A stretch of DNA of 62,919 nucleotides, from NCBI GenBank assembly GCA_027064045.1, contig JAMOQK010000007.1, positions 1 through 62,919 of the forward strand, written 5' to 3'. Under the pieces are notes generated by a model. The model did no database searches. It was not told the DNA's origin and saw only the letters and a program-made list of their open reading frames with translations. The stretch comes from Sulfurimonas sp. (GTDB taxonomy: Bacteria; Campylobacterota; Campylobacteria; Campylobacterales; Sulfurimonadaceae). Positions 715-13,023 of the stretch are shown piece by piece (the first letter of the stretch is position 1; every line of letters begins with the position of its first letter). The translations under genes were made by a program, and so were the position numbers.

Positions 715-2472
715 TTGAGAACTCATTATTGTACAGAACTAAACGAAAAAAATGTAGGGGAAAAAATCACAGTAGCTGGTTGGACAAACAGCTATCGTGA
801 CCACGGTGGAATTATTTTTATCGATTTACGCGATAAAACAGGTTTAATTCAACTTACTTGTGACCCAGAAGATAGTGCTTCAGCACATAAAATAGCCGAC
901 AGTGTTCGTGATGAGTTCGTTCTTATCGCCAAAGGTACAGTTCGTCTTCGTGGTGAAGGCTTAACAAATCCACGCTTAAAAACAGGTGCTATCGAGATTG
1001 TTGTTGATGAGTTGATTATAGAAAACAAATCTGCTCCAGTACCATTTGTTATAGGTGATAAAAATGTTGGGGAAGAAACTACTCTTAAATATCGCTATTT
1101 AGAACTTAGAGATCCAAGTGTATATGAAACTTTTCGTCTTCGCTCAAAAGCAGCCATAGCAGCTAGAAATGTTTTAGATGCAAACGGTTTTTTAGAAGTT
1201 GAAACTCCAATTTTAACAAAATCAACTCCAGAGGGTGCAAGAGATTATCTTGTTCCATCTCGTGTTCACAATGGTGAATTTTATGCACTTCCACAATCTC
1301 CACAACTTTTTAAACAACTTTTGATGGTTGGTGGTTTTGACAGATATTTTCAAATTGCGAAATGTTTTAGAGATGAAGATTTAAGAGCAGACAGACAACC
1401 AGAATTTACTCAAATAGATGTTGAGATGAGTTTTTGTAACCAAGAGGATGTTATAAAAGTTGCAGAAGATTTGCTTGAAGGTATATTCTCGGCATGTGAC
1501 ATTGATGTAAAACCACCTTTTAATCGCATAACTTACAAAGAGGCTATGGAACTTTATGGAAGTGACAAACCAGACTTAAGATATGATTTAAAAATGGTAG
1601 ATGTTATCGACATCTTTGAGAGATGTGACAATGAAATCTTTACAAATATAGCTGCACAACCTCACAAAAACCGTATTAAGGCTCTTAGAGTTCCAGGTGC
1701 TGATTTAGTATTTTCTAAAAGAGAGATGAAAAGCTTTGAGAGTTTTGTTCGTCAATTTGGCGCGCATGGTCTTGGTTATTTTCAAATGAAAGAAGATGGA
1801 CTCAAAGGTCCTCTAACTAAATTTTTCAGCGAAGAAGATATACAACTTATCATAGAAAGAACTGAACTTGAAGTTGGTGATGTTGTTTTCTTTGGTGCCG
1901 GTGAGAAAAAAACTGTATGGGATTACATGGGAAGATTTAGAATTTTCATCGCTGAACATGAAAAAATGAACCTTATAGATGAAAATAAATTTGAGTTTGT
2001 ATGGGTTGTTGACTTTCCAATGTTTGAAGTGGAAGACGGAAGAGTAAAAGCACTTCATCACCCATTTACAATGCCAAAAGATACAGATAAAAATGATGTT
2101 GAAGAGATTGAATCTATCGCTTATGATATTGTTCTAAATGGTACTGAACTTGGTGGTGGATCTATCCGTATTCACAAAGAAGAGATTCAAGAAGAGGTAT
2201 TTAAACTTCTTGGAATAAGTGAAGAGGAAGCTCAAGCAAAATTTGGTTTCTTGTTAGATGCACTTAAATTTGGAGCGCCTCCACATGGTGGTTTTGCTAT
2301 GGGATTTGACAGAATGATGATGATTATAAGCAAAAAATCTTCTATCCGTGATGTTATTGCATTTCCTAAAACTCAAAAAGCAGCTTGTATTTTAACCAAT
2401 GCACCAAGCGAAGTGGACAATACTCAGTTAAGAGATTTACACATAAGATTAAGAGAACAAACAAAAGCATAA
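715..2472 (+). CDS. aspS: Aspartyl-tRNA synthetase
   Basis: 585 residues, normal for a bacterial class IIb AspRS. It charges tRNA-Asp with aspartate. Visible parts are an N-terminal OB-fold anticodon-binding domain (about residues 1-110, with [20 protein letters not shown]), class II motif 2 with [18 protein letters not shown] near residue 220, the bacterial insertion domain, and motif 3 [10 protein letters not shown] near residue 527. The start is TTG with an AAGGA ribosome site. Some Campylobacterota AspRS are non-discriminating and also charge tRNA-Asn; that cannot be decided here without knowing whether asnS or gatCAB is present. The stop overlaps the adk start (TAATG), so the two are translationally coupled. 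Confidence 0.97.
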
Positions 2473-10774: not shown

Positions 10775-12139
10775 TTATTGAGTGAGTATATTAAAACTTT
10801 TTAACTTATTTAAGATGGATGATTCTTCGTCAAAATTGTTTTGATACTTGCCTATCTCAAGTGTACTTAGTATAGTTTTACCTATGATAATCCTTCCGTA
10901 AATACCATCTTTTTTAGTTTTTATACCCCAAGTGTTATGAAGAATTATTACATCACCATTATACACTCCAACATATAAAGCTATATGACCTCTTTTATAA
11001 AGTAAGGTTTGAAATGGTATGGCCTGTTCTTTGATAAGCTTTATTTTTTCATCATTACTTAAATCTTCTAAAGAAATAACCTTGCCAACTTTTGCTTGTT
11101 GTGATGAATTTCTAGGTAACCAAATACCAAACGGTGCAAATATATCACGCATAGTAGAAGAACAATCTCTTTGCCCATAAATACCACCCCATCCATAATT
11201 TGATTTAGACACTTCTGAAATAATACGATTTAAATTTTGTTTTGTTAATTTCAAAACACCTTTATGAGATATATCTTTATCTATTTTTGCTTTAACATAT
11301 AATGGTTGGAAACCTTTATATTTTGAGATTGCCAAAACTATATAATTTTTATCTGTTTCTTTAATCAAAGCCAACATCATACCTATTTTTGAATCAAACA
11401 AAAATTTTCCATCTACACTATATATAGGTATATTGTCTTTGGTTAAAAAAATCTGCTCTGCTTTTTGCCATTGTTTTGCGTATCTATCTTTTAGTGTCAC
11501 TATATCTGCACTTTTTACCCAACCAGATGCAAAACTAGTAAATATATATGCCCACTCTTTATCTTTAGAAAAATGGGAAATAAAAATAGGCTTATTTGCA
11601 GAAACTGTACTGTTTTGAAGATAATCAAACGGAAAACCCTCACCAGCTAGTAATGGATCTCGTAGCAGTGGTCTAGTTGTTGGAAACGCTCTGATATTTA
11701 GATGTTCAAGAGTAACAGCTTTTTTATTAACACTAAGATATTCATCAAAATTTGCATTTAAATAATTTTTTTCAAAAAAACTTTTATCTAAAAGTTGAAG
11801 ATTTTCTCCATAGCTACTTCCCACTCTGTATGATTTAAATGGCCATTTTATACTTTCAACACTTTCCCCAGGTGTTTTAAAATTCCAGACTCTAAAATAA
11901 TTTTTTTCATACTTTTTTTGAATATCATATAATGAAACACTGTCGTTAATCTTTGATGTAAACTCTTTTATATCTTGAGGTGTATGTTCTAAATCATATA
12001 TTTGAGTTTTTTCTATATCGATACAAACTTCTGTTGTTGTTTTAACTTTCAACTCCTTTTTTGAAGAACAAGCTATAAAGTTAAAAACTAAAAACCCCAT
12101 CAATATATATCTAAAAATACTCAAATTAAAACCTTTCAT
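10775..12139 (-). CDS. SH3-containing NlpC/P60 cell-wall peptidase lipoprotein
   Basis: 454 residues from the ATG at 12139 (a TTG one codon upstream is the track's start). An N-terminal hydrophobic segment ends in lipobox FIAC, so it is a lipoprotein. SH3-like regions fill the middle (about 100-270). The C-terminal NlpC/P60 domain has the catalytic Cys in YGQRDCSSTMRD (about residue 325), His in RGHIALYVG (about 384) and LHNTWG. It probably cleaves peptidoglycan stem peptides. Its start overlaps the stop of the S24 regulator gene (TGATG), so the two are one operon. A regulator controlling a wall peptidase in one operon is unusual. Confidence 0.85.
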   Translation of the reverse strand: MKGFNLSIFRYILMGFLVFNFIACSSKKELKVKTTTEVCIDIEKTQIYDLEHTPQDIKEFTSKINDSVSLYDIQKKYEKNYFRVWNFKTPGESVESIKWPFKSYRVGSSYGENLQLLDKSFFEKNYLNANFDEYLSVNKKAVTLEHLNIRAFPTTRPLLRDPLLAGEGFPFDYLQNSTVSANKPIFISHFSKDKEWAYIFTSFASGWVKSADIVTLKDRYAKQWQKAEQIFLTKDNIPIYSVDGKFLFDSKIGMMLALIKETDKNYIVLAISKYKGFQPLYVKAKIDKDISHKGVLKLTKQNLNRIISEVSKSNYGWGGIYGQRDCSSTMRDIFAPFGIWLPRNSSQQAKVGKVISLEDLSNDEKIKLIKEQAIPFQTLLYKRGHIALYVGVYNGDVIILHNTWGIKTKKDGIYGRIIIGKTILSTLEIGKYQNNFDEESSILNKLKSFNILTQ

Positions 12140-12798
12140 CAATCCACATCACCAAATCTACTAACAACTCTACCAATAACCTCGACATCATCTACATCAA
12201 GAGTTTGAGTTGAGTAAACTTGATTATCTGATATTATATCTATTTTTCCATCTAAGCGTTTTTGAATTCTCTTAATAAAAAGACCAGATTCTGTTCTAAT
12301 GGTAAATATACCACCCCTTTGAAGATCAGTTTTAGCTCTGTTAATAAACACTATGTCATTATAACTAAAAGTTGGTTCCATAGAATCACCAGATACATTT
12401 ATAGCTTCTATATTTTTTAATTCTCTCTCTCCACCAAGCATAAAAACAAACTGTTCAGGTATCTCAATCTCCTGCATATCTTCACACTCCACATCACCTC
12501 CCCCACCAGCGCTTGCACTAACATCATTAAAATACTTTATCATATAAAATTTATTTGTAGCTTCTATTAAACTTTCTGGCGATTGTCCATAAAGCATCCA
12601 GTTTATAGATATAGATTTTGTTGCACAAAAATCCAAAAGCTCAACATAAGGAATTTTATTTCTTTTTTTCATTGTTGCAAAATTCATTTGAGTAATATTT
12701 AATATATCTGCAACATCTTTATCAAATATCTTTTTAGAACTAAATTCAGAAGATATTATACTTTTTATCTCTTCTACTATCTCGGCAAAAGTATTCAC
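12139..12798 (-). CDS. CI/LexA-like S24 self-cleaving repressor
   Basis: 219 residues. An N-terminal HTH of phage CI type (about 25-75, DKDVADILNITQMNFATMKK) is followed by a linker and a C-terminal S24 peptidase domain. The catalytic Ser is S139 in SGDSMEPT and the Lys K176 in LFIKRIQ. The candidate autocleavage bond is A97-G98 in SASAGGGG. So it could be inactivated by RecA-stimulated self-cleavage, like CI or LexA, although it is not a standard LexA. The start is GTG with a G-rich ribosome site AAAAAAGGGG. A promoter and a palindrome lie upstream; it likely represses itself and the divergent 27-codon ORF. Confidence 0.85.
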   Translation of the reverse strand: MNTFAEIVEEIKSIISSEFSSKKIFDKDVADILNITQMNFATMKKRNKIPYVELLDFCATKSISINWMLYGQSPESLIEATNKFYMIKYFNDVSASAGGGGDVECEDMQEIEIPEQFVFMLGGERELKNIEAINVSGDSMEPTFSYNDIVFINRAKTDLQRGGIFTIRTESGLFIKRIQKRLDGKIDIISDNQVYSTQTLDVDDVEVIGRVVSRFGDVD

Positions 12799-12828
12799 AA
12801 TAGCCCCTTTTTTGCTAAATATAGTAAA

Positions 12829-12857
12829 AGTATAATGTAAAAACGCAATAAAGTCAA
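12829..12857 (-). promoter_or_regulatory. Promoter of the S24 repressor-lipoprotein operon
   Basis: Reading the minus strand, TTGACT (12857-12852), a 17-nt spacer and TATACT (12834-12829) form a near-consensus sigma-70 promoter, predicted to start transcription near 12822, about 24 nt before the GTG at 12798. Confidence 0.6.
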
Positions 12858-12862
12858 AATAA

Positions 12863-12881
12863 ATATGTCAATTTGTCATAT
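12863..12881. promoter_or_regulatory. 19-bp palindromic operator in the divergent repressor region
   Basis: ATATGTCAATTTGTCATAT is an inverted repeat around a central T (ATATG-T-CAA / TTG-T-CATAT, with a single T:T mismatch per arm). It overlaps the -35 of the rightward promoter and lies 5 nt from the -35 of the leftward promoter, the geometry expected for autoregulation and repression of the divergent gene. Confidence 0.6.
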
Positions 12882-12900
12882 TTTTTACTTTTTTTATAAA
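12873..12900 (+). promoter_or_regulatory. Rightward promoter facing the 27-codon ORF
   Basis: TTGTCA (12873-12878), 16 nt, then TATAAA (12895-12900). The -35 lies inside the palindrome at 12863-12881, so the promoter should be blocked when the repressor binds. Confidence 0.5.
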
Positions 12901-12939
12901 AAACATGTAATATCAAATAATTTATCTAAAGGATTTAAA

Positions 12940-13023
12940 ATGTTAATATTTATTGAAAATGCACAAAGTTTATTTCAAAAGTTTGAAAACAACATAGAGA
13001 TTTTAGCAAATAGATTTTTTTAA
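12940..13023 (+). CDS. 27-residue small ORF divergent from the S24 repressor
   Basis: Too short for the ORF track. ATG at 12940 has a good ribosome site (AAAGGA, 7 nt upstream), its own promoter and an operator. The peptide is MLIFIENAQSLFQKFENNIE plus ILANRFF, which would form an amphipathic helix. I do not recognise it. Its position opposite a CI-like repressor suggests a damage-induced or antirepressor-like or membrane-active small peptide, but this is inference. Its last 4 nt overlap the end of the convergent 48-residue membrane protein gene. Confidence 0.4.
   Translation: MLIFIENAQSLFQKFENNIEILANRFF

Follow-up and report, generated by a model that had tools for sequence, protein, structure and literature searches.

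The window, by which we mean the whole stretch of 62,919 nucleotides that was analyzed, is contig C7 of a Sulfurimonas-like MAG of 1.53 Mb that is 75% complete. The locus considered here is flanked by housekeeping genes, for example leuB and flgG (read from their translations), and is not embedded in phage genes. It comprises the following features, with the evidence for each in brackets:

10775–12142, minus strand: NlpC/P60 lipoprotein, overlapping the repressor stop codon; its ATG is probably at 12139 (Pfam)
12139–12798, minus strand: CI-type S24 repressor (P0001), 219 aa, GTG start (Pfam, invariant residues, Foldseek)
12857 to 12829, minus strand: leftward promoter of the repressor operon, TTGACT-17-TATACT (promoter score 10/12)
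12863–12881: palindromic operator ATATGTCAATTTGTCATAT, predicted equivalent of an SOS box, 8 of 9 base pairs symmetric (PWM score 23.5)
12873–12900, plus strand: rightward promoter, TTGTCA (12873–12878)-16-TATAAA (12895–12900) (read from the sequence)
12928–12933, plus strand: microprotein ribosome-binding site AAAGGA, 6 nt upstream of the ORF (sequence)
12940–13023, plus strand: conserved 27-aa microprotein MLIFIENAQSLFQKFENNIEILANRFF (family-wide conservation, frame-specific substitutions)

The divergent S24 gene and 27-codon ORF are separated by a gap of 141 bp, inside which lies ATATGTCAATTTGTCATAT, the sole strong PWM site within the window. The rightward −35 element falls inside this operator, and the operator ends ~5 bp upstream of the leftward −35 element, such that, judging from the anatomy of the region, one operator could block both promoters. 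An earlier sequence-only reading of this DNA had described divergent promoters with a palindrome overlapping the rightward −35 element, a repressor that keeps its autocleavage residues, and a 27-residue peptide with its own ribosome site. Our analysis bears out each of these points, and the residues concerned, the A97-G98 cleavage site and the S139/K176 dyad, are invariant across 25 orthologues.

In Pfam, P0001 matches Peptidase_S24 (1.1e-17) and, slightly under the gathering score, Phage_CI_repr (7e-4), with no match to PF01726, the winged HTH of canonical LexA; against the NCBIfam lexA model it reaches only 23 bits, the cutoff being 111. The AlphaFold model is of moderate quality (pLDDT 79, pTM 0.54), and a Foldseek search with this model ranks a phage 186 CI/lambda hybrid first, followed by LexA. 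The nearest non-orthologous phage relatives are repressors of Campylobacter and Helicobacter phages, at 31–36% identity. In a tree of S24 proteins, the Campylobacterota families form clades of their own and the phage repressors sit on a separate long branch, with plasmid paralogues grouping near family f5 at modest support. We note that on plasmids of Sulfurospirillum, Aliarcobacter and Sulfurimonas aquatica (L438, L439 and L441), an S24 paralogue lies back to back with a gene annotated as DNA polymerase IV.

The repressor gene is present in 113 of 116 good Sulfurimonadaceae genomes, at 55–85% identity, and, judged from these genome sequences, is a core chromosomal gene of the family and not a mobile element. 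Orthologues occur in most other Campylobacterota families examined, save nearly all Campylobacter- and Helicobacter-like genomes; a close orthologue is missing from most genomes of f2 and f3, which we infer to be Helicobacteraceae and Campylobacteraceae (and f7 to be Arcobacteraceae). Canonical LexA is essentially absent elsewhere in the phylum, PF01726 exceeding its cutoff in 1 of 298 genomes. The neighboring lipoprotein (Pfam domains SH3_6, N_NLPC_P60, SH3_7 and NLPC_P60) accompanies the repressor at 103 of 110 Sulfurimonas-type loci, a set that includes some genomes occurring in two collections, and at 0 of 20 loci of other families. It may be SOS-induced, as it shares an operon with the repressor. 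The suggestion in the sequence-only reading that the locus forms a lysis module thus finds no specific support, the lipoprotein being an operon partner within the family only.

A search for the palindrome elsewhere in the genome, which the same reading had proposed, returned five further intergenic near-copies at promoters or beside genes: upstream of recA, upstream of a two-gene unit ending in dprA, upstream of each of two integron integrase genes, and next to a structured locus adjoining a recD2-like operon. The operator copies in this genome have PWM scores of 20.1–26.1, and the pattern gives 6 and 6 matches, compared to 1 and 0 for the reversed-pattern control; these sites come from a MAG that is 75% complete, and two of them lie on contigs of ~3 kb that are possibly misbinned. 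The integron integrase sites lie on short contigs, C11 and C22 (L006 and L007), and one of the integrases is apparently full length (TIGR02249, 410 bits). A match in C31 (L004), inside a terminase-like ORF, scores 15.2 and was treated as chance; the terminase-like ORF itself seems to carry an intein. At the structured locus (L003, C45:39399), the SOS-type operator (1501–1519) is followed by a structured leader (z −2.9), a strong SD and then a small ORF (1319–1378, minus strand) for a very hydrophobic peptide of 19 aa, MRLTLVIVIVLVLLELRLY; a GC-rich hairpin comes after the ORF, with antisense promoter-like sequence opposite. This ORF is a candidate TisB/Ibs-like type I toxin, and a search of it against Rfam gave no match.

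The operator consensus, ATATTGCAAATTGCAATAT, is conserved upstream of repressor orthologues. We trained a PWM exclusively on the repressor's own upstream sites from 18 genomes of the family, keeping recA upstream regions out of the training, and found that the region upstream of recA reaches a score of at least 15.5 in 18 of 20 family representatives, where the 99.9th percentile of a null of Markov-resampled sequence is 14.9 and control stretches taken from these loci do not exceed 3.7. Of the two remaining representatives, G050 has no recA site by PWM and G003 only a weak one (9.0); many recA regions of the family carry two sites, 28–30 bp apart. Across the 20 family genomes, the motif gives 123 forward matches (table sum) vs 15 for the control, and sites scoring at least 16 are intergenic in ~30 of 33 cases, while 7 of 8 weaker sites are inside ORFs (author's count). 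The motif is also found at both the repressor and recA promoters in families outside the training set, namely in 9 of 9 f7 genomes, most of f4, part of f10, f9, the single representative of f3g74, and f2g56, where it is weak at recA. It was not found in f8 or f11, nor at recA in two f10 genomes and one f4 genome, and the recA regions of eight genomes taken as lacking the orthologue yielded no sites (0/8, PWM maximum 3.9). Residues 41–43 of the recognition helix are ATM (once ACM) in the families with the motif, and SVL, SMM, SML, AVL or SIL in f8 and f11, which were searched for the motif without success, and in f5, where it was not scored; this covariation links the S24 protein to the motif. 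No convincing shared site emerged when palindromes were sought de novo in f8, f11 and the other motif-less genomes.

Taking operator presence as the measure of regulon membership, with the main gene names checked against NCBIfam, the predicted regulon includes DNA repair and recombination genes. In G011, sites lie at recA, ruvB, radC, the repressor, an integron integrase remnant and DNA methylases. Other genomes of the family have sites at radA (6 genomes), recG (4) and comM (4), as well as at recN or a nadK-like gene, a Y-family polymerase, a ComEA-like protein, a zinc-finger protein adjoining a nitroreductase-like gene, and a 70-aa HTH-only repressor paralogue (nadK and nitroreductase being named by reading alone). 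In f7, they lie at uvrB, radA, a Y-family polymerase, radC and the putative DNA-repair radical-SAM protein TIGR03916 (rSAM_link_UDG). A Y-family polymerase with the operator is present in G073, G491 and G481, and none was seen in the window's own incomplete genome. Two recurring small proteins deserve separate mention. HTH-only paralogues of 70 aa, with no S24 domain, lie under the same operator in two Sulfurimonas genomes (L350, 1575–1787; L360, 1235–1447) and could be non-cleavable competitors of the repressor. A small CPYC zinc-finger protein, with no NCBIfam match, recurs under the motif in two families (L348, L364, L376, L400, L405 and L410), and its gene faces the nitroreductase-like gene in two Sulfurimonas genomes.

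Conservation of the 27-codon ORF in relatives had been set beforehand as the test on which the sequence-only reading could fail, and the ORF proved to be conserved throughout Sulfurimonadaceae: matching divergent ORFs lie beside the repressor at ~98 of the same 110 Sulfurimonas-type loci (doubly collected genomes included) and in most other genera of the family. Among the extracted copies, 85 of 90 have exactly 27 codons, comprising 68 distinct 27-codon sequences, and the pooled nonsynonymous/synonymous ratio is 0.77 by a deliberately conservative count, compared to 2.6 and 3.7 in the shifted frames. Of the 19 family genomes shown, 18 have a single match, adjoining the repressor, to an HMM built from 26 family sequences, a result that mainly shows single copy and position. 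By sequence comparison, then, this is a real conserved microprotein that is always divergent from the repressor. It is predicted to form an amphipathic helix (moment 0.50–0.63, shuffle p ≤0.007), and its mean Eisenberg hydrophobicity of ≤0.2, together with the amphipathic pattern, predicts no membrane span. No Pfam family was matched, and outside Sulfurimonadaceae the HMM gave only marginal matches, inside long ORFs. The same slot holds ORFs of 23–34 aa in f7, f9, f10, f3g74 and f2g56, alike in position and a C-terminal hydrophobic dipeptide only, an unrelated but internally similar ORF of 35–48 aa in f4 (L193–L197 and L234), and a Y-family polymerase, identified by reading its N-terminus, in f8 and f11.

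As to what the peptide does, a division or envelope checkpoint is, tentatively and by analogy, the likeliest role, because its position matches that of yneA and sosA beside lexA. TisB is of similar size to the 27-aa peptide. An SOS-induced membrane toxin or persister peptide of the TisB type, in place of a division checkpoint, would fit this size, the amphipathic helix and the SOS operator over the peptide promoter, and yet the hydrophobicity is too low for a membrane span and the gene is single copy and always adjoins the repressor, which makes this role somewhat unlikely in our assessment. The peptide could instead act in feedback, binding the repressor or RecA to tune SOS recovery, and the strict pairing of its gene with that of the repressor across the family would suit such a modulator; we consider this unlikely, given that no Pfam family is matched and that other genes occupy the slot at the f4, f8 and f11 loci.

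Considered together, these observations argue that, in this Sulfurimonas and in most of the Campylobacterota other than Campylobacter and Helicobacter, the S24 protein very probably serves as the SOS master repressor, or functional LexA. This assignment is based on orthology, catalytic residues, motif distribution, recognition-helix covariation and microprotein conservation, all read at the level of sequence, and it is from these that we infer binding, cleavage, induction and peptide function. In the corresponding mechanism, a repressor dimer with a CI-type helix-turn-helix would bind palindromes of the type ATATTnCAAwwTGnAATAT at its own promoter, at the divergent micropeptide promoter, at recA, and at other repair, translesion, recombination and DNA-uptake genes. 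Upon DNA damage, RecA filaments would prompt the S139/K176 dyad to cut the repressor between A97 and G98, thus releasing the regulon, of which the divergent 27-aa amphipathic peptide would be a dedicated SOS output.

The locus could also be viewed as a prophage remnant, a degenerate immunity switch of repressor, lipoprotein and peptide that acts only locally, and the CI-type HTH, the 31–36% identity to Campylobacter and Helicobacter phage repressors, and the phage 186 CI structural match all point in that direction. However, a gene that is near-universal in its family at 55–85% identity, resolves into family-wise clades apart from the long phage branch, and has housekeeping neighbors is difficult to reconcile with such a remnant, and the operator at recA and repair genes refutes it as the main role; we consider it extremely improbable, although a phage origin of the ancestral repressor is likely. 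The "phage-style damage switch" of the sequence-only reading therefore stands insofar as there is an autocleaving S24 repressor with an operator able to block both its own gene and the micro-ORF, but the picture of a phage switch pared down to three genes is mistaken, or too narrow: the repressor is a vertically inherited core regulator with operators at recA and many repair genes. It is also conceivable that some other regulator, perhaps one governing recombination or competence generally, binds the palindrome, with the S24 gene as just one target among several: binding by the S24 protein is deduced from autoregulation, and dprA, comM and a comEA-like gene are among the targets. This is very unlikely in view of the absence of the motif from the recA promoters of all eight genomes without an S24 orthologue, the way in which its presence tracks the recognition-helix residues of the S24 protein, and the persistence of the operator at the repressor's own promoter even as its position shifts between families.

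We found no earlier description of a LexA-type regulator in Sulfurimonas, Arcobacter, Campylobacterota or Nautilia in the open-access literature. In its broadest form, the proposal is that a phage-type repressor was captured by ancestral Campylobacterota and governed a complete SOS response, that this response was largely lost from the Campylobacter and Helicobacter lineages behind the phylum's "no SOS" reputation, and that the system has a new family of SOS effector peptides of ~27–34 residues encoded back to back with the repressor; we regard the chances of this full proposal as evenly balanced. Phage-type repressor recruitment for SOS has an earlier case in the HdiR of Streptococcaceae. If the proposal is true, the absence of SOS would hold only for the host-associated branches, and vent and sediment relatives would run SOS through a phage-type repressor that they had recruited independently, adding to the cases of Streptococcaceae and Bacteroidetes. 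It would also supply a conserved micropeptide and a defined operator, whose predicted regulon takes in integron integrases as well as DNA uptake (dprA, comM, comEA-like), and whether SOS loss went along with the move to hosts would become directly testable.

Like the LexA of E. coli and T. maritima, the Sulfurimonas repressor has an S24 C-terminal domain, an Ala-Gly cleavage site, a Ser-Lys dyad, and recA and its own gene as (here predicted) targets, and unlike these it lacks the PF01726 winged HTH and falls far below the NCBIfam lexA cutoff. With the CI proteins of phages 186 and lambda and the Campylobacter-Helicobacter prophage repressors it shares domain architecture, the phage 186 CI/lambda hybrid being the best structural match, but in contrast to phage CI its gene belongs to the core chromosome and has a repair regulon, and its identity to phage relatives is ~35%. 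Epsilonproteobacteria have been described as lacking a LexA orthologue, and C. jejuni, itself without LexA, does not answer ciprofloxacin with an SOS response (PMC2390758); this agrees with the lack of a close orthologue in most f2 and f3 genomes. As regards the peptide, the small division inhibitor SosA of Staphylococcus is controlled by LexA and encoded divergently from lexA (PMC6851548); the likeness to SosA and YneA is one of position, in that a gene for a small protein faces away from that of the SOS repressor and is placed under the latter's operator, whereas the Sulfurimonas peptide is a 27-aa amphipathic molecule with no transmembrane segment by mean hydrophobicity.

The closest precedent, compared by its published description, comes from Bacteroidetes: there, a canonical SOS network is governed by a non-canonical LexA that is itself an S24 repressor of CI type, and the authors propose naming such proteins LexA by function (Sanchez-Osuna et al. 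2021, PMC8565304). That family recognizes CTAA-N5-TTAG or GGA-N5-TCC and is restricted to Bacteroidetes, with no mention of Campylobacter or Epsilonproteobacteria (PMC8565304). Both are chromosomal S24 proteins with a CI-type N-terminal domain and a fixed palindrome, both are autoregulated, by operator evidence on the Sulfurimonas side, and both have a divergent error-prone polymerase in some species; they differ in phylum and motif, and in the divergent microprotein and the competence and integron genes of the regulon on the Sulfurimonas side. Under the functional definition of LexA (PMC8565304), the Sulfurimonas repressor is chromosomal and, by operator evidence, would control repair and translesion synthesis; the Ala-Gly site, the Ser-Lys dyad, and the operator at its own promoter and at recA are likewise present, and for cell-cycle arrest the micropeptide is the candidate.
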